A stretch of DNA of 32,197 nt from Aquipuribacter hungaricus (GTDB lineage: Bacteria > Actinomycetota > Actinomycetes > Actinomycetales > JBBAYJ01). Each line of letters starts with the position of its first letter. The first letter of the stretch is position 1. The position numbers and the translations under genes were made by a program. The notes below the pieces were generated by a model. The model did not search any database. It saw only the letters and a program-made list of their open reading frames with translations, and had not been told where the DNA came from. The stretch is taken from assembly GCF_037860755.1 (NCBI RefSeq), contig NZ_JBBEOI010000019.1, forward strand, positions 1-32,197. The letters run 5' to 3'. Below are positions 6,277 to 22,365 of this stretch, piece by piece.

Positions 6277-6528
6277 GTGCTGGCCGACGACAACGCCCTG
6301 AGCGAGGCGGTCCTGCGAGACCTCATCCTCGACCAGCACATCAAGCCAGACGCGGAGCTCGTGGCCTCGCTCAACGCGACCATCGCACGGCTGCGGGACA
6401 GCCACGGCAACCGCCCTGTGCCGGTGGTGCGCGAGGTGCTGCGTCGTGAGCTCGACGCGATGGGGTTGGACGGCTGGGTGACAGACGGGGACGGCTTCGA
6501 CGGCCTCGTGCGCCGCATCGTGCGCTGA
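6277..6528 (+). CDS. Small hypothetical protein B, paralogue of protein A
   Basis: An 83-residue protein starting at GTG 6277 (weak ribosome site). Residues ~48-65, with RPVPVVREVLRRELD then MGLDGW, align closely with the preceding small protein; the N-terminal parts differ. It is convergent with the conjugation operon, with 57 bases between stops. Function is unknown. The pair suggests a tandem duplication with divergence of the N-terminal half. Confidence 0.72.
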   Translation: MLADDNALSEAVLRDLILDQHIKPDAELVASLNATIARLRDSHGNRPVPVVREVLRRELDAMGLDGWVTDGDGFDGLVRRIVR

Positions 6529-6585
6529 TCCTGCAGCCGACGAACGACCGCCGGACGAGCCTGTCGACCGGTCCGCACCGCTGCG

Positions 6586-7092
6586 CTAGAAGAGGCCGAC
6601 GGGCGGCTCGTCGCACGGCAGCGGCTTGAGCCGTGCGTCGTGGCCCTTCTCGGGGCTGCACCCCTTGAACGGGCCGTCGGGGTCCAAGAGCGTGGCCATG
6701 TGCGGATCGGCGTGGTCCCGCAGCCACACGCTGATGCCCAGCGCGGGTTCCAGGCGCAGGTGCTCCCACGCCCGCCACAACGCGTCCAGACGGACGATGG
6801 CCTCCGCGTGGCGCCACCACTGCGGGCACCACGTCCGGTGCCGGCCGTCCAGGCTGCGCCGGTACGTCGGCGCCAGGAGCTCCCGGACGAAGACCTCCAC
6901 GGTGGGGAAGTACAGCTGCGGGGCATCCTCCTCCGGCGACGCCGTGTCGGCGGGCTCCGGGCCGGCGCCGGTGTCCTCAGCCCACTCGTCGGTGGCCCCC
7001 CATCCCCCCTGCCCGACGCCCGCCGGGTCGCCGATCGGGTCGTCGGTCACCGTCGCGACCGGGGAGCTGCCCAGGTCCGCGCCGGCAGTCAT
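6586..7092 (-). CDS. DUF4913 family protein, end of conjugation operon
   Basis: A 168-residue protein. The ATG at 7092 overlaps the stop of the coupling-protein gene as ATGA, so translation is probably coupled. An acidic Ala/Gly-rich N-terminal tail (~60 residues) precedes a compact domain with the DUF4913 hallmarks: WCPQWWRHAEAIVRLDALW, then AWEHLRLEP, WLRDHADPHMATLLDPDGPF and a C-terminal GLF. In actinobacterial conjugative elements this family commonly sits beside TraG-like coupling proteins, consistent with an accessory role in DNA transfer; the biochemical function is unknown. It is the last gene of the minus-strand operon. Confidence 0.88.
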   Translation of the reverse strand: MTAGADLGSSPVATVTDDPIGDPAGVGQGGWGATDEWAEDTGAGPEPADTASPEEDAPQLYFPTVEVFVRELLAPTYRRSLDGRHRTWCPQWWRHAEAIVRLDALWRAWEHLRLEPALGISVWLRDHADPHMATLLDPDGPFKGCSPEKGHDARLKPLPCDEPPVGLF

Positions 7093-8930
7093 GACGAGCT
7101 CCCGCCGGGCCGGGTGACGGCCGACGGAGAAGGGGTGACCGGGACCGCGACCGTGACGGTCCGGGCGGGCCTGGCAGCCGCCGGCGGAGGACGCCGTGCG
7201 GCAGGGGCGTGCGCAGCGATGGACGCCCGCACCTCGGCGGCCGCGGGGCCGTCCATCCACGGCACCGTGCGGACGAGGGTCGGCGGGATACCGGAGGCGA
7301 GCAGGAGCGCCCTCCCGCGCGGCAGCGCACCGAGCTCGGAGACCTCGAGGACGCGCTCACGCCGGGTGGAGCGGCTGGTGGACCGGCCACCCCTGCCGTG
7401 GGAGGTGGACAGCTGGCGCAGGTCGTAGTCCCCGACCAGCTGGGACAGCTCGGAGAGGAACTCCACCTCCGAGACACCGCCGCCGTAGACCTTCACGTTC
7501 GCCGCCGACCACAGCTTCCGCATCCCGTCGCGGCCCCACACCTCCACCCCCTGCGACCAGGACTGCAGGATCGTCATCATCACGATCCCCCGGGAGCCGT
7601 AGTGGGAGTACAGGTTCGGCAGCTCCCGCCACCGGCACACGTTCGCCGCCTCGTCCAGCACCGCGACCAGGGGAACCGGGAGCCGCCCGCCGGGCGAGGA
7701 CGTGGCCAGCTGCTCCGCGGCCTCGGTCACCGCCACCGTCAGCGCCGTCACCAAGGGGCTTGCGGACCCGCGGCCCTCCTTGGACAAGGAGTACAGGGTG
7801 CCGCCGTCGCGGACGAACGCCGCCGGCGAGAACTCCGTCCGAGCACCCCCTCCCTCGGACGACGGGGTCACCCAGCCCATCGCCCGCCGGTTGGTCATGA
7901 ACGAGGCCAGCTGCTGCGCCGTGCCGTACACGCCGCCGCGCTGCTTGTCGGGGGCGTGCACGACCCCGGCCACCGCCGCCGCCGGCAGGACGTAGCCCGC
8001 GATCCGGAGCAGGTCGACCGGCTCGTCCTCGGTGGGGTCGGTCAGCCACAGGTACACCTGCGTCAGCGGGCGGTCGGCGACCGCCGCCGCGAGCAGCAGC
8101 CCCGCCAGGAGCTCACGGGCGGCGGAGTCGAAGAACGCGTCCGTCCGGGCGCCCGGGTCCCTGGACGCGGAGGAGATGAGGTCTGCCAGCACGGACGCCC
8201 TCACCTCGTCGGTGACGTAGGTCAGCGGGTTCCACCACCACGCGCCGGGACCGGTGGTGGGCTCCTCGACGATCCCCTGCGGGTCGAACACCCACACCGG
8301 GCCCGCCGCCGCGCGGGGGCCGCGGGTGGCGTCGACGATGTCCCGCTTGTTCGACGTCGCCAGCACCGCACCCGGTGCGGCGAGGACGGCAGGGATCGCG
8401 CGGGCGGTGGTCTTCCCCGTGCGGGGACCCCAGATGTCCACCGCGTTGTCCTCCCACGAGGAGAACAGCGGCTGCCCCGCCAAGGACACCCCGATGGGCA
8501 GACCCGGGCTCGCCCCCTTCGCCGTGGCCACGCCCAGGCGGGCAGCCGTCGCGGCCGCACCGTGCCGGGACACCGGCCGCAGGACGCTCCCCCGGGCCAG
8601 GTGCGGTGCGGCCCGGTCCACCCCCGCCCGACGCCGTCGACCCCTGCCCCGAAGGACAGCCACCAGCACCAGCGTCCCCAACACTAGGATTCCTAGGCCC
8701 ACCGCGGCAAAGGTCGCGGACGGCGTCCACGGCACCGTGCCGCCCAGGACCCCGAACAGCAGCGAGAACGGGTTGCGGGGCAGGACCACCCCGGTCCCGT
8801 CGAGCCGGTGACCCAGGTGCGCGCCACCGGCCACGACACCGGTCACGGTCACCGCCGCGGTGACCCCCACCCACACCAGCACGGTGTCGGTCGAGCTGGC
8901 CGACGCCGGCCGTCGCGTCGACGCGCTCAC
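7089..8930 (-). CDS. TraG/VirD4-type type IV coupling protein
   Basis: Membrane-anchored ATPase that would recruit a DNA substrate to the secretion channel. The product has 613 residues. Two N-terminal transmembrane segments (about 15-38 and 75-95) are followed by an Arg-rich cytoplasmic stretch. Walker A GPRTGKTT lies near residue 168 and Walker B VAVLDEAANV near 420-430. Motifs ELPNLYSHYGSRGIVMMTILQS and AANVKVYGGG are typical of the TraG/TraD family. GTG at 8930 is used, 42 bases after the ATPase gene's stop; the ribosome site is weak. The C-terminal ~40 residues are Pro/Ala-rich and probably disordered. Two copies of the CTAG 9-mer (8682-8699) lie inside the DNA coding for the second transmembrane segment. 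Confidence 0.92.
   Translation of the reverse strand: MSASTRRPASASSTDTVLVWVGVTAAVTVTGVVAGGAHLGHRLDGTGVVLPRNPFSLLFGVLGGTVPWTPSATFAAVGLGILVLGTLVLVAVLRGRGRRRRAGVDRAAPHLARGSVLRPVSRHGAAATAARLGVATAKGASPGLPIGVSLAGQPLFSSWEDNAVDIWGPRTGKTTARAIPAVLAAPGAVLATSNKRDIVDATRGPRAAAGPVWVFDPQGIVEEPTTGPGAWWWNPLTYVTDEVRASVLADLISSASRDPGARTDAFFDSAARELLAGLLLAAAVADRPLTQVYLWLTDPTEDEPVDLLRIAGYVLPAAAVAGVVHAPDKQRGGVYGTAQQLASFMTNRRAMGWVTPSSEGGGARTEFSPAAFVRDGGTLYSLSKEGRGSASPLVTALTVAVTEAAEQLATSSPGGRLPVPLVAVLDEAANVCRWRELPNLYSHYGSRGIVMMTILQSWSQGVEVWGRDGMRKLWSAANVKVYGGGVSEVEFLSELSQLVGDYDLRQLSTSHGRGGRSTSRSTRRERVLEVSELGALPRGRALLLASGIPPTLVRTVPWMDGPAAAEVRASIAAHAPAARRPPPAAARPARTVTVAVPVTPSPSAVTRPGGSSS
8682..8699. repeat. Two-unit outlier of the CTAG 9-bp repeat
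   Basis: CACTAGGAT followed directly by TCCTAGGCC: two CTAG cores exactly 9 bp apart, the same unit and phase as the array ahead of parA at 20694-20866. It is inside the coupling-protein reading frame. It could be a secondary binding site for the partition protein or a coincidence. Confidence 0.5.
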
Positions 8931-8972
8931 CAGGGGCTCACGAGGGGCGCCTGAGCTGCTCGGCGGTGGGGC

Positions 8973-10712
8973 TCACGGCACGATCCCGCTGCCCACGGGG
9001 CCCGTGCGCTCCGGCACCGGTCCGCTCCCCCGACCGCTTTCCCGTGCGCTGCTCTGGTGCCTGCTCCCCGGCTGGGTAAGGTCGACAGGGAGCTCGGCGA
9101 GGGGGTCGGCGGGGAGGTTGACCTGCCCGGTGACGTCGACGTCGACGACGCTCGTGGCGGGCGCGTCGCGCCACTTCTTGTTCGTGTCGTTCAGCGCCCC
9201 CTCCACCGAGGTGAGGGCGACCTTGACCGGGATACCCGGCCGGCCCCCGACCTTGATGAGGAACTTTCCCTGCCCCGGCGGCGCCGCGGCGTCACCGAGG
9301 TGGGAGTCCCACGACGGCGGCGTGGTCCAGCTCGTCACCAGGTCCCGCTCGGCGCGGGACATCCCCACCGCGGAGGTCAGCATCGGGATCTCCGCCGACG
9401 GCAGGCCCCCGCAGATGACCATGCCGGCCCGCTCGACGAAGCCGCGGGCCTTCATCCGGTCCTCCTCCGTCGGCAGTGCCAGGAGGTCGCTCATGGTGTG
9501 GGAGACCATCGCCATCCCGACGCCCCGCTGACGGTTCAGCCGGGTCAGGGCGTCGACCCGGTCCACGATCCCGCGGCCGGCCCGCAGCGCCCGCCACAGC
9601 TCGTCCAGGACTACGAAGTAGTGCCGGCGCGGCTCGAGGCCGGCGTCGGCCAGTGCGTTGGCCACGTTGATCGTCCCGAACCCGGTCGACCAGCACGCCA
9701 GCAGGACCGCGGCCTGCAGGTCGGTCTCCCCGTCCCCGATCGCGGACACGTCGTAGGCCACCGGCCGGTCCCGGCGCATGGGCGTGGTGGTCTGCGCTGA
9801 GAAGATCCGCCCGAACCGGCCCCCCTCCACCAGCGCCACCAACGACGCCTCCAGGCCCTCGGTGATCGCCCGGTACCGGTTGATGTCTCCGCGGTCGAGG
9901 GCGACCTGCCGGACGTCATCCGGTGCGGATCGGATCACCTCCACCAGGTCCGCCAGCACCGGGATGCGCGGCGTCGACCCGGACTGGGCTGCCATCCGGT
10001 CGTCGAGGACGCGCAGCGCCCGGTCGAGGACTGCCTCCTCGCGGTCGCTCGGTGGCGCGGCCCGGGCGATCGTCAGCAGCGCGCTGACCGTGGTGAGGCG
10101 GCGGCCGTGGGCGTCGGCGAGGACCTCCTCCCGCGCCCGGCCCGTGAGCCGGCGGGCGGCGGCGGTGGACTCCCCCGGGTCCAGGACGTTGAGGTGACCG
10201 CGGCCGCGGCCCAGCGGGAGGACGTCGCCGCCCATGGCGGTGATGAGGTCCAGGTAGTCCGGCTTGAGGTCGCCGAGCACCAGCGGGAGCACGCCGTAGC
10301 CGGCCAGGCCGAGCGCCATCCGGCGGACCACGGTGGACTTCCCGAGGCCGGGCAGGCCGAGGACGAACGCGCTGGGGTTGGCGATGAGGTTCGCACGGCG
10401 GAACCACGAGATGGGGTCGCAGCCCACGGTGGCCCCGCTGATGAGGTTCTGCCCCAGCGGCACCCCCACGATCGGCGAGCCGGTGCCGGCAGCGAACGGG
10501 TACAGCCCGCACACCTGCACCGACGTCCCCCGGAACTCCGGCGCCGGTTCCACCAGCGCGACCCGACCACGCCCCGGACCCGACCAGCCCCGAGGGCCTG
10601 GCCGCTGCTGCCTGGCGGTGGAGCTCGACCCGGACCGGCCCCCGCCGGCCGCCGGCTGGACAGGTCCCTGAGGGGCAGGGCGAGCCGTGCACGCGGCGCG
10701 GAGCGGGCTCAC
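8973..10712 (-). CDS. VirB4/TraC-like conjugation ATPase
   Basis: Energises assembly of the mating channel on the cytoplasmic side of the membrane. It has 579 residues from GTG 10712, chosen because that GTG overlaps the preceding TGA as GTGA; longer starts would run antisense-like through the upstream gene. The N-terminal ~45 residues are Pro/Gly/Arg-rich. Walker A GLPGLGKST lies near residue 120, followed by LGDLKPDYLDLI. Walker B VVLDELWRAL lies near 370 and is followed by RQRGVGMAMVSHTMSD, as in VirB4-type hexameric ATPases. The C-terminus is again Pro/Arg-rich. It sits between the SCO6880-like gene and the coupling protein, the usual order in actinobacterial transfer loci. Confidence 0.9.
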   Translation of the reverse strand: MSPLRAACTARPAPQGPVQPAAGGGRSGSSSTARQQRPGPRGWSGPGRGRVALVEPAPEFRGTSVQVCGLYPFAAGTGSPIVGVPLGQNLISGATVGCDPISWFRRANLIANPSAFVLGLPGLGKSTVVRRMALGLAGYGVLPLVLGDLKPDYLDLITAMGGDVLPLGRGRGHLNVLDPGESTAAARRLTGRAREEVLADAHGRRLTTVSALLTIARAAPPSDREEAVLDRALRVLDDRMAAQSGSTPRIPVLADLVEVIRSAPDDVRQVALDRGDINRYRAITEGLEASLVALVEGGRFGRIFSAQTTTPMRRDRPVAYDVSAIGDGETDLQAAVLLACWSTGFGTINVANALADAGLEPRRHYFVVLDELWRALRAGRGIVDRVDALTRLNRQRGVGMAMVSHTMSDLLALPTEEDRMKARGFVERAGMVICGGLPSAEIPMLTSAVGMSRAERDLVTSWTTPPSWDSHLGDAAAPPGQGKFLIKVGGRPGIPVKVALTSVEGALNDTNKKWRDAPATSVVDVDVTGQVNLPADPLAELPVDLTQPGSRHQSSARESGRGSGPVPERTGPVGSGIVP

Positions 10713-12259
10713 AGGGCGCTCCGCACCGAGGCAGGCAGTGCGGAGTGCGCCGGGAGCATGAGCCCCAGCGGCAGGGACGCGGCGAAGCCGACGTCCTGGG
10801 ATCCGTACATGGGCCGCAGCTGCAGCCGCGCGGACGCCGACAGCATGTCCACCGCGGCGATGGCGTCCGGCAGGCGCTGCTCGTCCGCGACGGTCGCGGT
10901 GACCAGGACGGAGAAGTCGACCAGGCCCGCACCGAGGGCCTCCTCCGCCGCGGTGGCAGCCGCGGCCCGCTGCTCCGCGATCGCCCGCGCCGAGGGGCGG
11001 TCGCCGACGGTGGCGCGGAAGTCCGCGGCCCGCTTGTCGATCTCTACGATCCGCGCCGCCCGCGCCGGGTCCAGCGGCCGGAACACCAGCGTGACCCGCT
11101 TGCGGTCCACGTCCGGGTGGGGGTTGAGCAGGCCGTGCAGGACCGAGCTGTACACCTCCCCGCGCGGGGGTGCGGTCATCGACCAGGTCACCGACACCGC
11201 GCTGTCGTGCCGGTACGTCGACCACGTTGCCTCCGTGGCCACCGGGCCCACGTCACCCCACCGCAGCTCCGGCACCGACCGGTCGTGGCGAGCCTCGTCC
11301 AGGGTCAGCGCCATCGCCGGGTCGTAGGCGACCCGGACGAACTCGCACAGCTCCTGCGCCGCGACCGGCCGCGCCCCACCCGCACCCGTGGCGAGCAGCC
11401 CCTGCGACAGCACCGGCAGCCGCGACGCCAGGTCACGCGCGACGTCCGCGGCGGAGCGGCGACGGGCCCCCGGGCGGGGTGCGGCGGAGAACGTCAGCGT
11501 CACCCACGCCCGGATGGTCGCCGACCCCTCCGGGTAGCGGGCCACGACCTCCGACAACATCGCCAGCGCCACCGCCGGCGCGTCAGGGTGCGCCTGCTTC
11601 TCCACCTCCTGCCGCAGTCGGCTGCCGGAGTCCGGTGCGGTCTCCACCGTCACCGACGCCCCGACCAGGCCCGCCTCCGACGACAGGGACGACAGCCACG
11701 CACCCCACTGCGCCACCCACAGGTGGACCTGCTCCGCGTCGACCAGAGACGCCCCGTCCGGCTCGGTGGAGAACATCACCGAGCAGTGGCCCGTCGACGG
11801 CACCCGCAGCACCGCGAAGGGCCGCCCCCAGGAGTCCGTCCACTCGCTCAGCTGCGACGCCGCGAGCAGCCCCGGCAGCTGGTGCGTCCCCCACGGCACC
11901 CCCGACAGCGCGCCCGAGCGGTACAGGTGCATACCCCGCCGCCGCCCGTCCGCCCACAGCAGCCACCGGCCCAACCGCTCCGCCCCCGTCGCGCCGTGAC
12001 GGTCCCGGAACGCCAGCAGCGCCAGCACCGCCCCGAAGACCAGGACCAGCGGCACCACCGCACGGAACCCGCCCGTGAACCACCCCACGATCAGGCTCAC
12101 CAGCCCCACGAACAAGATCACCGTCCCGAGCGCACCCATCCCCAGCAGCCCCGGCGACGCCGGACGCCGCCAGTTGCCGTAGGTACGCGGACGCGCCTGC
12201 CCCCCGTGCCCCCCGTGACCACCAGCACCCGACTGCCCGGTGTGCTCAACGACTGCCAT
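10709..12259 (-). CDS. SCO6880-like conjugation membrane protein
   Basis: A 516-residue protein of the actinobacterial SCO6880-like family, thought to combine the PrgI/VirB3-like membrane region with the N-terminal part of a VirB4-like protein. A His/Gly-rich start (HGGHGGQARPRTYGNWRRP) precedes two adjacent transmembrane segments at about 33-55 and 58-78. A large soluble domain includes WGDVGPVATEATWSTYRHDSAVS, MTAPPRGEVYSSVLHGLL and a C-terminal MYGSQDVGFAASLPLGLMLP typical of the family. ATG 12259 has a GGGGGAGGGT ribosome site and overlaps the upstream gene by 14 bases. The stop overlaps the ATPase start. It lacks a Walker A, consistent with the ATPase being the separate downstream protein. 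Confidence 0.88.
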   Translation of the reverse strand: MAVVEHTGQSGAGGHGGHGGQARPRTYGNWRRPASPGLLGMGALGTVILFVGLVSLIVGWFTGGFRAVVPLVLVFGAVLALLAFRDRHGATGAERLGRWLLWADGRRRGMHLYRSGALSGVPWGTHQLPGLLAASQLSEWTDSWGRPFAVLRVPSTGHCSVMFSTEPDGASLVDAEQVHLWVAQWGAWLSSLSSEAGLVGASVTVETAPDSGSRLRQEVEKQAHPDAPAVALAMLSEVVARYPEGSATIRAWVTLTFSAAPRPGARRRSAADVARDLASRLPVLSQGLLATGAGGARPVAAQELCEFVRVAYDPAMALTLDEARHDRSVPELRWGDVGPVATEATWSTYRHDSAVSVTWSMTAPPRGEVYSSVLHGLLNPHPDVDRKRVTLVFRPLDPARAARIVEIDKRAADFRATVGDRPSARAIAEQRAAAATAAEEALGAGLVDFSVLVTATVADEQRLPDAIAAVDMLSASARLQLRPMYGSQDVGFAASLPLGLMLPAHSALPASVRSAL

Positions 12260-13586
12260 CAGGACCCTCCCCCGTAGAGCTCGACGTGCTGCGCGACGCC
12301 GCCGCCTGCGCGGCAGCACCCGCCTGCAGCGCCACCTGGCCGACCGCGACCACCGCGCCCGCCCCCGACGCACCCCTCGCCACAGCACCGCCAGCACCTG
12401 CACCGCCAGCGCTGCTCGCCGTGCCCGCGCTGCCGGTCGCACCCGAGGCGGTCGGGGCACTGGCACCACCGCCCTGCGGCGGCACCCCCCGCGCCCCTCC
12501 CGACGGTGCAGACCCCGACGGTGCCGACGACGCAGCTGCCGAGCCGGCACCGGTCGCGCCCGGAGCACCGCGCATGCCGGCCGCCCCGCTCGAGCCAGTA
12601 GCCCCAGAGCGGGCGAAGACCGCACCAGACGGCATCGCCGCCAAGGCGCCCATGGCCAGACCTGCGCCGCCGCCGGCACCCCCGGACGACATCGCCGACA
12701 CCGCGGGCGTGACGAACCGCATCAGCGCCGGCAGCGCCAGGATCGCCAGCACCATCATCGTCACGCCCACCAGCACGTCGAGCATGCCGCCGCCGTCGCT
12801 TCCCCCGAACAGGTTCGCCCCCGACAGGCGGAACGCCGTCGCGTAGACGATCGCCGCGGCCGGCTTGTAGAGGATGAACGCCAGCAGCCACGCGCAGCAG
12901 CGGCGGAACCACGTCCGACCCGTCTCGGTCGTCGTGAACGACGCCGACAACGGGAAGATCCCCGCCAGGATCACCAGCATCCCCGACCTGACGATCATCA
13001 GAATGATCTGCACGCAGGACGTGACGATCCCCCCGACCCCCAGGAAGATCACCAGCAGCGCCGGCATCCCGTCCCCGGCCACAGTGGGTGTCACCAGCGG
13101 AGCCAGCAGCAACCCGCCCAGGTTCTCCCCGAAGTTCGTCCCGACCGTCGACCGGTCGATGATCCACTCGGCGAAGGCGTCCGCCGAGCGGACCGCCAGG
13201 GCGATGGTCGCCAGGCCGGCACCAGACACCACCGACAGCGTCATCAACGACCGGAGGACGTCACGGCCCGGCTCGGCCCGTCGCTCCCACGCCATCCGAG
13301 CGCCGCCGACCATGACCGACAGCACCGCGGCCGCCGCCATGTACCACCACAGCGACCCCTGGATGAAGCCCACCGCGTCCGACGGGCTGTTCCCCGACGT
13401 CGTCAGGTTCGGCGTCCCGATGTCCACCCACAACGTCGACAACGACGTGATCACCGACCCGACCGCATCGCCGACGGCCTTGGCTAGGCGACCCAAGGTG
13501 TCGGTGATGATGCCTGCCGCCACCTCCTCGGCTTGGCAGTCGATGTCGAAAAGCCCGCACTGGGGGTTGGGCGCCGTAGTGGTCAT
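12246..13586 (-). CDS. TrbL/VirB6-like polytopic mating-channel protein
   Basis: A 446-residue membrane protein whose ATG at 13586 overlaps the preceding stop as ATGA. The N-terminus MTTTAPNPQCGLFDIDCQ, with two Cys, precedes an amphipathic stretch. About six hydrophobic segments follow between residues 50 and 310, including the LLVIFLGVGGIVTSCVQIILM and SGMLVILAGIFPLSASF regions, typical of TrbL/VirB6 inner-membrane channel proteins. From residue ~315 to the end it is an Ala/Gly/Ser-rich, low-complexity tail, probably cytoplasmic or secreted and disordered. It is immediately followed by the SCO6880-like gene, the order seen in other actinobacterial transfer systems. Confidence 0.88.
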   Translation of the reverse strand: MTTTAPNPQCGLFDIDCQAEEVAAGIITDTLGRLAKAVGDAVGSVITSLSTLWVDIGTPNLTTSGNSPSDAVGFIQGSLWWYMAAAAVLSVMVGGARMAWERRAEPGRDVLRSLMTLSVVSGAGLATIALAVRSADAFAEWIIDRSTVGTNFGENLGGLLLAPLVTPTVAGDGMPALLVIFLGVGGIVTSCVQIILMIVRSGMLVILAGIFPLSASFTTTETGRTWFRRCCAWLLAFILYKPAAAIVYATAFRLSGANLFGGSDGGGMLDVLVGVTMMVLAILALPALMRFVTPAVSAMSSGGAGGGAGLAMGALAAMPSGAVFARSGATGSSGAAGMRGAPGATGAGSAAASSAPSGSAPSGGARGVPPQGGGASAPTASGATGSAGTASSAGGAGAGGAVARGASGAGAVVAVGQVALQAGAAAQAAASRSTSSSTGEGPDGSR

Positions 13587-14356
13587 GTGCCGCTCCACGG
13601 GACGTATCCAGCGAGGGAGGGGGCGGCCTGCAGGCGGGGGAACGGTGCTCCTTCGGGTCCGAAGACCAAGCGCCAGTCGCCCTGTTCCCAACGCAGGGTG
13701 ACCGGCGTGTGCACGGTGACTACTTGCTCGCGCGTTGCGGCCAGCATCGCGAGGTCGATGACCGTCTCGTCCTCGGTGTAGGAGAGGAACGAGAAGCCAG
13801 CGACCTGCACCTGCGCTTCGGAACTCGGTCCTGCGGAACTCCCCTCGGTCGGGAGGTTCTCAAGCGCCACGTCGCGCCCCGCGCCCTCAGCACCCAGGTC
13901 TTCCGTCAGGATCCGCTCAGCGTTCGGCAGCGTCGTGGTGGCGGCGACATTGACCGCTGCGTACAACGCGCCCACCGGGGTGCGCGCGAAGCAGGACCGA
14001 ACAGGCGAGCTGACGGCGGGACCGTGCAACTCCGGTGCCGTCGGGGCCACCATCTCCCCCACGAGCTCCCACTGCGTCTCGGTGGGCGCCACAACCGGGA
14101 CGGTCTGATCCCCGGCGGGCAGGTCGCAGGACGACGACTCCGGCTCGGTTGCCGTAGGGGTGGGAGACGGCGCGGCCCCTCCGGTCGTCTGCCGGCCCTG
14201 TCCCACCTCGACCGGGTCCGCGTCGCTCCCCGGGAGCGTGAACAGCACGACGGCCGCGACGACCAGCAGGCCGACGAAGAGCGCCGCCAGCACGAACCCC
14301 CGCCGCGCCCACAGGCTCTGCGGCCCGTCGGCCTCGTCCTCGAAGCTCGAGCTCAT
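13583..14356 (-). CDS. Single-pass conjugation protein in VirB8-like position
   Basis: A 257-residue bitopic protein: a short acidic cytoplasmic tail, one transmembrane helix at about 20-42 (FVLAALFVGLLVVAAVVLF), a Thr/Pro/Ser-rich linker, then an extracellular domain. The end TLRWEQGDWRLVFGP resembles the WxxGDWRL close of NTF2-like folds used by VirB8/TcpC-type proteins. The start ATG at 14356 is preceded by GAAGGGGG. Its stop overlaps the TrbL-like start. Assignment as a VirB8-type scaffold rests on topology and operon position, not on a recognised family signature. Two to three Cys in the exported domain may form disulfides. Confidence 0.72.
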   Translation of the reverse strand: MSSSFEDEADGPQSLWARRGFVLAALFVGLLVVAAVVLFTLPGSDADPVEVGQGRQTTGGAAPSPTPTATEPESSSCDLPAGDQTVPVVAPTETQWELVGEMVAPTAPELHGPAVSSPVRSCFARTPVGALYAAVNVAATTTLPNAERILTEDLGAEGAGRDVALENLPTEGSSAGPSSEAQVQVAGFSFLSYTEDETVIDLAMLAATREQVVTVHTPVTLRWEQGDWRLVFGPEGAPFPRLQAAPSLAGYVPWSGT

Positions 14357-14398
14357 CCCCCATGCCCCCTTCGTTGTGGCGCCTCAGGTCTGCTGCCG

Positions 14399-14671
14399 TC
14401 AGACGAGGGCAGTGACGAAGCCGGAGGCCGCACCCACGACGACACAGCCGGCCAGCACCGTGCCGAGCTTCCCGACGTGCTCACCGCCCTCGCCGCGCCG
14501 GCTGGAGATGACCATCGCGATCCCGCAGAAGACGACCCCTGCCACGCAGATGGCCAAGGCCACCCAGGACACCCAGTTGAGGATCGTCAGGAAGCCCTCG
14601 GCACCCGGAGGAGCCCCCGGCGTCGGCACCGGGGCGAACGGGAGAGAAGCGGCAGTCAGCGGATTCTTCAC
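14399..14671 (-). CDS. Small two-helix membrane protein, VirB2/TrbC-like position
   Basis: A 90-residue protein opening the conjugation operon. GTG 14671 is preferred because GGAAGGGA lies about seven bases upstream; longer in-frame starts add an unrelated leader. A Pro/Ala-rich N-terminus is followed by two hydrophobic segments (about 32-56 and 72-90) separated by a short basic-acidic loop with SSRRGEGGEHVGK. This size and topology match VirB2/TrbC-type pilin-like subunits and the small proteins at the head of Gram-positive transfer operons. The call rests on topology and position only. Confidence 0.68.
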   Translation of the reverse strand: MKNPLTAASLPFAPVPTPGAPPGAEGFLTILNWVSWVALAICVAGVVFCGIAMVISSRRGEGGEHVGKLGTVLAGCVVVGAASGFVTALV

Positions 14672-18282: not shown

Positions 18283-20313
18283 ATGAGGGTAGCCGATGAC
18301 GATCCTGTTGCAAGAACTACTGGCGAACCCGACCCGGCGTGTCCGGTCGACGCCTGGACGCTCACCCACGCGCTGAGCCCGCGGCCGCTGGTGCGTGTCT
18401 CAACCGTCGACGCCACCGGGACCACCCTCAACGCCTACACCGGCCACGCCCCGGTGGACGGCCCTGCACCCGAGCTGCCCTGGGCGGTCTACCTCGCCGG
18501 CCGTGACCAACGGTTCCGCCTGCTCGCGCTCGACCTCGACGCCAAGACCGACCCCTCCCCCGCCCACCACGACGCCGACGTCCTCAGCACCCTCCTCGAC
18601 ACCGAGGGCATCGCCCACGTGGTGTGCCGCTCCGGACCCTCCGACGGGCGCCACCTCTGGCTCGCCCTCGACGGGTCCGTCGACGCCGCCACCGCCGCCA
18701 CCCTCGCCCGCCTCGCCCGGCACCTGTGCCCCAGCCTCGACCTCGCCCCCCTCACCAACCCCGCCACCGGGTGCGTCCGACCCCCCGGCGCCCCCCACCG
18801 CGACGGCGGCACCTCCACCGTCCTGCAGGGCGACCTCGCGACGCTCACCCGGCCCACCACCACCCCCGAGCAGGTCCGCAGCCTCATCACCCGGCTCTCC
18901 CAGCTCGTCGACGACAACGTCACCGAGCCCACGACCGCCACCGCACCGACTACACCGCTGCCCGTGGACCAGCACGGCCACCTGTACCTGCCGGGCGCCC
19001 GCCGCGCCCTGCCGCCGGTCAGCGAGACCGCCCTGCACGACCAGGCCGCGGCCGCCGGCCCCGAGGGCGCCGTCACCGCCGACGCCTCGGCGGTGCTGTG
19101 GACCGTCCTAGTCGGGGCCGCCGCCGCCCGCTGGCGTCACCACGACATCGCCGCCCTGCTGCCCACCGCACCCGGCCTGGAGCACCTGCGCAGCGCCCGC
19201 GACCGCGGCCACCGACGTCCCCGCCCCGCGGACGGACCCTCCTCCCCCACCGCCGTCCTGCGACGGCAGTGGCGCAAGGCCGTGCAGCACGTGGCCACCA
19301 CCGCCCGCCGCACCGGCACCGACCCCACCTTCGACACCCGCGCCGACCAACTCACCGCCCACGTCCGCGCCGTCCAGGCCCGCGCCGACGCCACACCCGG
19401 CCGGTGGACCCGTGGCGCCGGCCCCGGCGACCGCCGCGTCCTCGACGTGCTGTGCACCCTCGCCCTGCACGCCCTCAGCGCCGACCTCGAGGCCGACACC
19501 CGCCGCGTCGCCCTCCTCGCCGGCGTCGGCCGCGAGACCGCCCGCGTCGCCCTGCAGCGCCTGACCCGCGACGGCTGGATCGCCCTCACCCTCCCCGCCG
19601 CCGGCCCCCACGGCGCCCACTGGAGCGTCACCCCGCCCACCGCGGCAGCCATCCACAGAGACACCACCAGTGATCGGTCACAAGCGGACCCGCGCCCCGC
19701 AGGGGCAGGGGCCGCCGAACGTCTGGTCCTGCTCTCCGCTCTCCTGCGTCGCACCCAAGATGCTGCGCACGATTTGTTCACCAGCGGGTCCGGGCTCGGC
19801 CACCACCTGGGGAACGTCTACGCCAGGACAAGCCACGACCCCACCACCGTCATCGACCTCGCTCGAGCCACTGCCTCCGCGCCCCACCAGCTCCGAGCCG
19901 ATCTGCAGAAACTCGAGGCAGTTGGGCTCGTCGAGCACAGAGGCGGCAGATGGCGTCGCGGCCGCCACGACGTCCGGGATGTCCTCGCCCAGGCCGTCGG
20001 CGTGCTCGGCCGGCTCTCGGACCGGGCACACCGGTACCGCGTCGAACGGATCGCCTGGGCGTGGTGGCAGGCCGAGCACGCCTGGATGACCGCGCCCCGG
20101 CGCACCCATCCCAGCCGCCGCGCCGGCGCCGGGCAGCTGGACCTCCTCCCCCAGCTCGTCCGCACCGGCCCCAGCAGCCCCCTCGGCGCCCACCCGCGCC
20201 GACCCGACGGACGCGCCGACTACCGCGCGAGCCGAGCCGCCGTCGCCGCCAGCCTCGCCGCCGAGCATTCCCCCGCCATCGACCACGGCACGCCGCGCCG
20301 AGCGGCCGCCTGA
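18283..20313 (+). CDS. AEP primase-like replication protein with winged helices
   Basis: A 676-residue putative plasmid replication initiator. The N-terminal archaeo-eukaryotic primase (Prim-Pol) domain has motif I LALDLDAK (Asp84, Asp86), motif II SGPSDGRHLWL (His124) and the conserved RPPGAPHRDGG (Arg166 to Arg173), preceded by SLDLAPLTNPATGCV. The middle is Arg/Ala-rich. A winged-helix segment lies near 400-440 (TRRVALLAGVGRETARVALQRL) and a second near 525-565 (PHQLRADLQKLEAVGLVEHRGG). No helicase Walker motifs are seen. ATG 18283 is chosen because upstream codons fall in the hairpin leader. Together with the downstream par genes it forms a replicon-like block. The Asp/His triad appears intact. 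Confidence 0.85.
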   Translation: MRVADDDPVARTTGEPDPACPVDAWTLTHALSPRPLVRVSTVDATGTTLNAYTGHAPVDGPAPELPWAVYLAGRDQRFRLLALDLDAKTDPSPAHHDADVLSTLLDTEGIAHVVCRSGPSDGRHLWLALDGSVDAATAATLARLARHLCPSLDLAPLTNPATGCVRPPGAPHRDGGTSTVLQGDLATLTRPTTTPEQVRSLITRLSQLVDDNVTEPTTATAPTTPLPVDQHGHLYLPGARRALPPVSETALHDQAAAAGPEGAVTADASAVLWTVLVGAAAARWRHHDIAALLPTAPGLEHLRSARDRGHRRPRPADGPSSPTAVLRRQWRKAVQHVATTARRTGTDPTFDTRADQLTAHVRAVQARADATPGRWTRGAGPGDRRVLDVLCTLALHALSADLEADTRRVALLAGVGRETARVALQRLTRDGWIALTLPAAGPHGAHWSVTPPTAAAIHRDTTSDRSQADPRPAGAGAAERLVLLSALLRRTQDAAHDLFTSGSGLGHHLGNVYARTSHDPTTVIDLARATASAPHQLRADLQKLEAVGLVEHRGGRWRRGRHDVRDVLAQAVGVLGRLSDRAHRYRVERIAWAWWQAEHAWMTAPRRTHPSRRAGAGQLDLLPQLVRTGPSSPLGAHPRRPDGRADYRASRAAVAASLAAEHSPAIDHGTPRRAAA

Positions 20314-20693
20314 CACGCGCACACCATCGTCACCACGACCAGTACTGCGGACGCCCCCCGCTGCGGCCGACGGGGCCGGGTCTCGCCGTCGCCCGGTCGA
20401 CCGGAGGTCACCACGGCCAGGGGCGGCATCGCTGCGCTCTGCGGAGGCACCCGAGGTGATCCTTCCGGCCAAGAACGCGCCGGAAGCATCATCGGGGCCC
20501 GCCTCCTCCGGCCACCCCTGCCCGCGGTCAGGCTGCGCCTCGCCCGAACGACGGTGAGACCCCCAGCACCCCCCCGAGCGTCACCACCACGCCGCGCCCC
20601 CTCCAGGGCAGACACCGGCGCCCCGGAGGGCGCCGGGACAACCGAAGAACGCAGGGGCTCCGCCCCCACACCCCCGGCCCTCACTCCGATGAG
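20314..20693. other. Intergenic region between replication gene and CTAG array
   Basis: About 380 bases with no supported gene; open frames on both strands look like shadows. It contains two hairpins near its right end and then passes into the CTAG repeat array. An origin of replication could lie here, but nothing in the sequence proves it. Confidence 0.5.
20615..20666 (+). terminator. Paired hairpins downstream of replication gene
   Basis: CCGGCGCCC/GGGCGCCGG (20615-20636) has a CGGA loop and a perfect 9-bp stem. GGGGC/GCCCC (20654-20666) is weaker. Together they probably end the replication-gene transcript and insulate the par operon. Confidence 0.6.
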
Positions 20694-20866
20694 CCCTAGC
20701 AACACTAGGAAACCTATCTGCTAGGAACCCTAGTGTTTCCAGTCCTAGTGATCCTAGGGATGGTAGAAAACCTAGGAGTGCTAGATGCCGGTCACGCTCG
20801 GCGCGCCTCCGCGGCGCCGCCTCCTACGAATGCTAGGAATCCTTGGATATGTAGGAACCCTAGGAA
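20694..20866 (+). repeat. 9-bp CTAG-centred direct-repeat array, candidate centromere
   Basis: Imperfect 9-mers, consensus nCCTAGGAA, run in phase up to the parA start. Perfect CTAG cores begin at 20696, 20705, 20721, 20730, 20745, 20754, 20772, 20781, 20833 and 20860. Degenerate copies at 20714, 20763, 20824, 20842 and 20851 keep the 9-bp register. There are four clusters; the last five units (20822-20866) are perfectly phased, and about 34 bases separate clusters three and four. The block is much richer in A/T than its surroundings. Contiguous short direct repeats upstream of a ParA gene are the hallmark of centromeres bound by RHH partition proteins, and also act as the operator for the par genes. 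Confidence 0.8.
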
Positions 20867-20878
20867 TTCGAGGCTGAC

Positions 20879-21826
20879 ATGGATCGCACCACGCTGCGCC
20901 GGGTGGTCGCCGTCATCAACGGCAAGGGTGGTGCCGGCAAGACGTCGATCACCGCCAACGTCGCCGGCCTCGTCGCCAACTCCGGCTTCCGGGTGCTCGT
21001 CGTCGACATGGACCCGCAGGGCAACCTCGCCGAGGACTTCGGGTACACCCAGGGCGAGGCGGACGACCAGGGGCAGTCCCTCGCCGCTGCGCTGGCGTTC
21101 GGGCAGCCCGCGACGCCGCGGCGTGACGTCCGCCCGCGCCTGGACGTGTTCGTCGGCGGGTACCACCTCGATGCTGCGGCGGCCGCGCTGGCCGCGGCCA
21201 AGGACCAGGTCGGGGCCCGGCTCGCGCTGGCCCGGGTGCTGGAGCCGCTGGGGGAGGACTACGACCTCGTCCTCATCGACTGCCCGCCCGGGATCGAGGC
21301 GCTGCAGAACGCCGCGGCGGCCGCGGCCCGCTGGGCGCTGGTCCCCGCACGCTCCGACGCCAGCTCCCGCAAGGGGATGCTGGACGTGGCTCGGCGCCTG
21401 GACGCCGTCGTCGACCTCAACCCCGACCTGGACCTGCTCGGTGTCGTCCTGTTCGGCACCGGCACCGGCGCCCACCGCATCAAGCAGGAGGCGCGCGAGC
21501 GGATCGTGGAGGCGCTCGGCGCCGAGGACGTCGTCCTCACCACGACCATCCGGCACTCCGAGGCCACCGCCCACGCCGCGCGGGAACGAGGCCAGCTCGT
21601 GCACGAGCTCGAGGAAGAAGCCCGCAAGGGCCCGTCCTGGTGGCAGATCCGCCGCGGCGAGGCCACCGGCGCCGGGGGAGCACCCCGCACCGCGGGCGGG
21701 GTCGCCGAGGACTACCACGCCCTCGCCGAGGAGATCGTCGCCCGGATCACCGCCGCCGAGGCTGCCCAGGCAGAGCACCTCGAGCAGCTGGACCAGGTCG
21801 AGCAGGCGGGAGCTGTCGGCGCATGA
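20879..21826 (+). CDS. parA: ParA-type partition ATPase
   Basis: A 315-residue Walker-type ATPase that would move plasmid copies over the nucleoid. The deviant Walker A is KGGAGKTS (residues 16-23, signature Lys16 and catalytic Lys21). VVDMDPQGN and LVLIDCPPG follow. The Walker A is almost at the N-terminus, so the helix-turn-helix of type Ia ParA proteins is missing and this is type Ib-like, but longer than usual, with an extra Ala/Glu-rich C-terminal helix after residue ~245. ATG 20879 has GAGG at spacing five, directly after the repeat array. The stop overlaps the next start as ATGA. Autoregulation through the array by the downstream RHH protein is likely but inferred. Confidence 0.93.
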   Translation: MDRTTLRRVVAVINGKGGAGKTSITANVAGLVANSGFRVLVVDMDPQGNLAEDFGYTQGEADDQGQSLAAALAFGQPATPRRDVRPRLDVFVGGYHLDAAAAALAAAKDQVGARLALARVLEPLGEDYDLVLIDCPPGIEALQNAAAAAARWALVPARSDASSRKGMLDVARRLDAVVDLNPDLDLLGVVLFGTGTGAHRIKQEARERIVEALGAEDVVLTTTIRHSEATAHAARERGQLVHELEEEARKGPSWWQIRRGEATGAGGAPRTAGGVAEDYHALAEEIVARITAAEAAQAEHLEQLDQVEQAGAVGA

Positions 21827-22365
21827 GCGAGCAGCAGGCACCTGACCGCACCGTCCGCGGCTTCGGCGCCGCCCGCGCCGGCGGGGGAGTGCACCCCGAC
21901 GCCCGCCGGCTCATCGCCAGGAACCGGGTTACTCCGCCCGCACCCCGACCTGCGGCCCCCACGCCCCCGGCACCGACCTCCGTCCCTCCCGGCGCGGCTG
22001 CAGACCTGCCCGCAGACGTGACGACGTCGGCCTCGCCTGGCCAGGTTCCGCCAGCAGTCGCTGCGCCTGCGGCCGCACCCGTGCCCGCAGTAGTCGAGTC
22101 GTCAGCGCCGACTCCGCAGGTCGGGGCCGCCAGGAACGGTGCAGCGAAAGCTCAGGTCAACGTCATGGTCCCCACGGATCTCCGTGCCCGGATCAGGTCC
22201 GCCTATCGCGCCACCTCCGTGCAGGAGGGTCACCGGTCGTTCAGCGACTTCGTCGCCGGTCTGCTCGAGGCCGAGGCGACCCGTCTCGAGGGCCGCTACA
22301 ACGACGGTCGACGCTTCGCCGGGGGACAGGAACCGCTAACCCCCGGCCGGCCCTTGGACGCCTGA
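21823..22365 (+). CDS. RHH-type centromere-binding partition protein (ParB-like role)
   Basis: A 180-residue protein translationally coupled to parA (ATGA overlap). Residues 1-110 form a basic then Pro/Ala/Thr-rich, probably disordered tail. Residues ~111-165 (QVNVMVPTDLRARIRSAY, then HRSFSDFVAGLLEAEATRLEGRYNDG) have the strand-helix-helix pattern of RHH DNA-binding proteins. In type Ib partition systems such a protein binds the direct repeats with its RHH domain and stimulates ParA with its flexible N-terminal tail, which often contributes an Arg; RTVRGFGAARAGG near the N-terminus is a candidate. It is unlike the classical ParB, with no ParB/Srx domain. Confidence 0.82.
   Translation: MSEQQAPDRTVRGFGAARAGGGVHPDARRLIARNRVTPPAPRPAAPTPPAPTSVPPGAAADLPADVTTSASPGQVPPAVAAPAAAPVPAVVESSAPTPQVGAARNGAAKAQVNVMVPTDLRARIRSAYRATSVQEGHRSFSDFVAGLLEAEATRLEGRYNDGRRFAGGQEPLTPGRPLDA

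Follow-up and report, generated by a model that had tools for sequence, protein, structure and literature searches.

The centromere of pCXC100 is made up of direct repeats only, and the centromere-binding proteins of its type double as repressors (PMC5016525, accessible part). StbA, a stability protein of plasmid R388, binds 9-bp direct repeats (stbDRs); this 9-bp motif has further copies at other places on R388, the extra sites outside the main repeats are insufficient for stability, and deletion of stbA raises R388 transfer 50-fold (accessible part of PMC3098194). For plasmid NAH7, the accessible text of PMC12421886 describes a ParB that raises the transcription of conjugation genes via copies of parSNAH near those genes. 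Coupling between partition and transfer is already known from StbA/R388 and from NAH7 ParB; the new part in the locus described here is the location of the site, which is embedded in codons. We found no description of an RHH centromere protein that acts from inside a transfer gene among titles and the openings of abstracts, a scope outside which most of the subscription literature falls.

The DNA analysed is a stretch of 32,197 nucleotides from Aquipuribacter hungaricus (contig NZ_JBBEOI010000019.1, hereafter the window), with the following features:

6586..7260, minus strand: DUF4913 gene, downstream of the site and in the same direction (PF16259, 4.2e-39)
7089..8930, minus strand: gene of a type IV coupling protein (TraG/TraD/VirD4 type, 613 aa) that holds the site (TraG-D_C, 5.5e-35; T4SS-DNA_transf, 3.1e-18)
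8680..8697, minus strand: two-unit par-type site, codons 78-84 of the coupling-protein gene
8973..10901 (start provisional), minus strand: VirB4-like ATPase gene, upstream of the coupling-protein gene
10709..12252 (start provisional), minus strand: SCO6880-family transfer gene (NF042935, 9.7e-162)
20695..20789, plus strand: par array, distal clusters of 9-bp units (cores at 20696, 20705, 20714, 20721, 20730, 20745, 20754, 20763, 20772 and 20781)
20832..20868, plus strand: par array, cluster adjoining parA (cores at 20833, 20842, 20851 and 20860)
20879..21826, plus strand: parA, encoding a Walker ATPase (AAA_31, 1e-27)
21823..22365, plus strand: parB, encoding a pCXC100-type RHH centromere-binding protein, the expected binder of the site (PF18064, 1.3e-9)

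The layout of the pCXC100 type is complete in the window, with a 9-bp direct-repeat array (20695-20868) followed by parA and then parB, parA lying directly upstream of parB and its end overlapping the start of the latter. The C-terminus of ParB matches the CB_ParB_C family (PF18064) with 38.5 bits against a cut-off of 27, the only match to this family in the genome, and residues 107-179 match PDB entry 3no7 (E 1.9e-18), so that ParB falls in a family (type Ib partition) whose RHH domain has a solved structure. The entry is named a putative plasmid-related protein in the structure match, and we take it to be the ParB of pCXC100 itself. The array comprises some 14 to 16 units, many with imperfect cores, and an exact run of three CTAG units is absent from it. 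The units are CTAG-based here, and for pCXC100 no site in a transfer gene is described in the accessible part of PMC5016525. A search for terminal overlap of the contig as a sign of circularity found none. At 319-423, within an ORF (221-2059) for a CehA/McbA-type metallohydrolase, 21-bp tandem repeats encode HSHGPAG repeats.

The initial annotation had claimed that two CTAG cores, 9 bp apart as in the array, lie 12 kb away from it in DNA coding for the second transmembrane helix of the coupling protein, and all of this was borne out. Direct reading of the window gives CACTAGGATTCCTAGGCC at 8682-8699, with the cores starting at 8684 and 8693; the best limits for the site are 8680 and 8697 (minus strand, CCTAGGAAT CCTAGTGTT), and its spacing to the first array core (20696) is 12,012 bp. 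Read on the minus strand, it equals the array pair at 20721-20737 in 16 of 17 bases. The coding strand of codons 78-84 reads GGC CTA GGA ATC CTA GTG TTG, inside the hydrophobic second helix (codons 74-93, FAAVGLGILVLGTLVLVAVL). The units of the site point along the transcription of the coupling-protein gene, and the array units point likewise with respect to parA.

The paired motif is rare on every scale at which it was counted. CTAGN5CTAG occurs five times in the window, four of these in the par array, against 0.08 expected in shuffled sequences, and at six places in the 4.30 Mb genome, five of which are on this contig. Across about 64 Mb from 18 further genomes of the order we found 31 places outside one array described below, that of genome G401, or about 0.5 per Mb, which corresponds to about 0.016 expected in 32 kb. 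Allowing up to two mismatches, CTAGGAANCCTAG has 42 matches in the genome, 16 on this contig and 26 elsewhere; the six with at most one mismatch are all on this contig and the 26 off-contig matches all have two. We used 14 units of the array, and not the site in the coupling-protein gene, to build a two-unit matrix. With it the site scores 24.9, the top of the window, followed by 24.7 for the best array pair and 15.7 for the best place outside the par locus, and the simulated maxima were 18.6 (300 Markov sequences) and 18.4 (1500 codon-shuffled gene sets). Chance by base composition is ruled out by the shuffles, the genome count, the matrix score and the rate in the 18 genomes. Similar pairs occurring at random across the genome had been named in the initial annotation as an argument against the site; only one such place was found off the contig, inside an ORF (C7:20378), and it scores lower (19.7) and was taken as chance. 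An earlier null, whose reference was the full array stretch with the GC-rich gap left in, gave a 17-mer at one mismatch in 13 of 60 simulations; since this figure probably stems from the gap, that null was set aside and the unit matrix used instead. Other places in the window at two mismatches to the whole array stretch are GC-rich.

Codon use was considered both globally and locally. CTA accounts for only two of the 60 leucine codons of the coupling-protein gene, both in the site, and for 11 of 713 across 21 ORFs of the window, and each of the rare codons CTA, GGA, CTA and TTG improves the match to the motif. Computing the chance expectation given codon use, a check proposed at the outset, by reassignment of synonymous codons gave 0.006 CTAG pairs over the 21 genes and 0.0015 in the coupling-protein gene, and none of the 1500 codon-shuffled sets of all genes reached the score of the site. 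It could be argued that the rare codons are there for another reason, perhaps to slow translation of a membrane segment in the second helix, that the resemblance is a coincidence and that ParB does not bind. The third-position GC content (GC3) of codons 71-105 is indeed 0.74 against 0.93 for the whole gene, a dip that implies a higher background of rare codons and that is shared (0.74) by a paralogue of the gene on contig C1, in which CTA likewise occupies both codon positions, with cores that read CTAA. We allowed for the dip with a null of recodings relaxed towards AT at third positions, in which 810 of 200,000 recoded segments (0.4%) contained a bare CTAG pair, a mildly rare event. A score of 24.8, however, was reached in none of 40,000 such recodings, so that local use of rare codons is insufficient for the full match, and chance by codon use, global or local, is ruled out for it. 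As GC3 is moreover not consistently lowered in the other homologues in which the segment aligned, and as the site ranks first with two matrices, including one derived from another genome, we consider coincidence highly improbable. Directly shown are the sequence and position of the site, the quality and rarity of its motif, and that it exceeds what the coding need accounts for.

The second matrix came from a genome of another family of the same order, G401, where a search of relatives for CTAG pairs revealed the same CTAG 9-bp array on a contig of 4 kb (C272). This second replicon with a CTAG array (locus L192, 1328-2820) has the array before a ParA that is 77% and a ParB that is 42% identical to those of the window. 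When the window was scanned with a matrix made of the CTAG units of the G401 array only, the site in the coupling-protein gene came first (22.8), above every array pair, the next place outside the par locus scoring 10.3. On sequence grounds, this check ties the motif to the ParAB type, and the site in the coupling-protein gene to the motif. The view of the site as a genuine copy of the par unit is well supported by its first rank in the window with two matrices and by the concentration of five of the six genomic pairs on this contig. Exact three-unit CTAG patterns were present in 18 of 396 genomes, with parA and parB alongside in G401 only (about 3 kb viewed in each case). Three other genomes have lone groups of three to four CTAG 9-bp units (position 1500 of L202, L203 and L204; G577, G545 and G709, respectively), without a ParA or ParB homologue in the locus of about 3 kb. 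G401 has one CTAG pair outside its array; queries with transfer genes on the contig of that pair gave no significant match, and G401 has no close coupling protein. No close relative was found that has both the CTAG motif and this coupling-protein gene.

Considering that ParB is a pCXC100-type RHH protein, binding of the site by ParB is likely, and from the family of the protein we conclude that the site is probably a ParB site. In RHH proteins it is a strand near the DNA that makes the contact, and the presumed DNA-facing strand of the window ParB, taken from an alignment of the C-terminus, is QVNVMVP. The corresponding strand of the G401 ParB, read by eye from the translation, is QLNVSIP. Elsewhere in the family a QVTFYM-like strand mostly goes with GACAGTAA-like array units (L041, L047, L049, L112 and L117) and an MTVSIP strand with ACAAGTGA-like units (L040, L042 and L050), which fits the idea that the residues of the strand may track the motif of the array.

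The genes around the site are those of a transfer module. Besides the VirB4-like ATPase and SCO6880-family genes, other transfer genes too lie upstream of the coupling-protein gene in the same direction. With the starts as listed, the ORFs of the coupling protein and of DUF4913 overlap by 172 bp (7089-7260); the true start of the latter is probably further downstream, because the DUF4913 homology begins later than the listed start. A consensus scan for sigma-70 promoters, a class to which the scan was confined, showed no promoter-like sequence in 6500-14500. The unit itself resembles a -10 box, yet a reading of the motif as a promoter was rejected, as no promoter appeared in 6500-14500 or 20300-20950, a weak test in view of the sigma-70 scan. 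With no promoter-like site nearby, the site could be linked to expression only via elongation, a loop to the array or placement of the DNA.

Our preferred reading, which we hold tentatively and with somewhat less than even confidence, is that 8680-8697 is an intragenic ParB operator in the coupling-protein gene, a secondary ParB site that damps transfer. ParB would bind the two consensus 9-bp units, spelled by rare synonymous codons, presumably as two dimers side by side. Most likely, bound ParB would then stand in the way of RNA polymerase some 240 bp from the start of the gene, or loop the stretch to the array, and the output of the coupling protein and of the downstream DUF4913 protein would be damped, so that transfer would be tied to the level of ParB. 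Both the regulatory effect and its sign are inferred. Counting against an operator are the possibly weak binding of two units relative to the three to five of an array cluster, the possible leakiness of a roadblock formed by two small dimers, the lack of a promoter-like sequence near the site in the scanned region, and the missing site in five other coupling-protein genes (see below). The initial annotation had suggested that a bound site could link partition to the expression of transfer genes, and we regard such a link as plausible. The likeness to StbA of R388 lies in the 9-bp direct repeats and a further copy away from the array, although the extra sites of R388 sit in promoters of the maintenance/establishment region and not in coding sequence (accessible part of PMC3098194). 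The ParB of NAH7 activates genes downstream of its sites (accessible part of PMC12421886), whereas the window has an RHH protein and an intragenic site.

Homologues of the coupling-protein gene bear on whether such a site is kept, and the initial annotation had named its synonymous loss in relatives as a second argument against it. The paralogue on contig C1 (protein 82-84% identical) has CTAA in place of both cores because the next amino acids differ, and the orthologues of the genus, in G001 and G002 (75-76%), use other leucine codons and do not have the CTA pair. CTA at both codons is found in the window copy and the C1 paralogue only, among 33 distinct homologous genes including that of the window, in at least five of which the segment is unaligned. 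The C1, G001 and G002 copies were each viewed with 39-40 kb of surrounding sequence, in which no parA or parB homologue turned up. Three copies with no intact cores and no parAB found nearby indicate that the coupling protein does not need the site; judged from these surroundings, they are not instances of site loss where ParB is present. The C1 copy belongs to a paralogous transfer module (L017, 39-1865; C1:126042-127871) with three CTA codons in the same helix of its coupling-protein gene and a near-copy of the motif with two mismatches at C1:126294, which has a matrix score of 11.8 and was not counted as a site. As conservation across these relatives could not be shown, the site might be a by-product that is occupied without consequence or serves as a mild ParB sink, and a bacterial DNA-binding protein is indeed reported to have many sites within genes that are transcriptionally inert (accessible part of PMC10294691). 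The codon cost and a match above that of the array's own pairs are hard to explain in this way without selection or recent copying, and we judge an inert site unlikely.

To see how general the arrangement is, each of ten loci of this par type, the window included, was searched with a matrix derived from the array at that locus, the units being defined automatically and the matrix of L044 resting on two units only. No cognate site (of a diverged motif) was found in any of five coupling-protein genes of other plasmids, where the best scores (2.9 to 7.6) were below the null means, and a family-wide rule of par sites in transfer genes is rejected for the scannable loci. Nor did any satellite site in a transfer gene stand out in a further scan. 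Four of the nine other loci have a second cognate cluster of 9-bp units immediately behind parB, with a score above all null simulations (L047, 10569-10620; L050, 18303; L051, 20242-20290; L114, 11303), and in two more (L041 and L112) a weaker one exceeds the null mean and not the null maximum. There is no second cluster after parB in the window, which leaves the site in the coupling-protein gene as its only secondary site. This, together with the motif quality according to both matrices, agrees with an accessory centromere or tether, in which the ParB-bound site would serve DNA architecture and not transcription of the coupling-protein gene, by contact with the array across a 12-kb loop, by pairing or condensing of copies or by keeping the transfer region near the ParA system. 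The second clusters of the relatives are at the par locus, however, two units are small for a centromere, and the extra 9-bp sites of R388 do not suffice for stability (accessible part of PMC3098194), so that we rate a purely architectural role as rather unlikely.

Contigs C24 and C47 of the same genome encode ParA proteins 57-60% identical to that of the window, with a different leader sequence that shows no excess elsewhere, and they are probably sister plasmids with another partition specificity. Their primase-parA modules (L091, 13305-17136, on C24; L093, 3928-7437, on C47) are 57-63% identical and have a ACAGACTCACGGAGTC-like leader repeat. A ParB scan of a collection of genome contigs gave no match, and in a ParA scan other motifs were seen in Actinobacteria in the seven loci examined of 80. 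On contig C25 one match exceeded its own null (24.6 at L022:4174); it is GC-rich and lies outside the C25 coupling-protein gene.

If the site acts as a ParB operator, it may also work as a transfer switch, an extension that we think decidedly unlikely: site-bound ParB would repress the coupling protein in a settled donor, and a ParB-free recipient would make coupling protein until ParB builds up. Were this true, the element would go through a round of further transfer before becoming established, under a control signal concealed in the synonymous codons of the very gene that it controls. Partition is usually studied as one module and transfer as another, and the coupling protein is the gatekeeper of the latter. 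The site suggests, and does not prove, a direct link between the inheritance of this plasmid-like element and its spread, and a ParB site inside the coding sequence of the coupling protein would connect partition and transfer directly and compactly. The site can be removed by synonymous mutation with no change of the protein, and it would exemplify an intragenic DNA site for whose retention a GC-rich genome pays with very rare codons.
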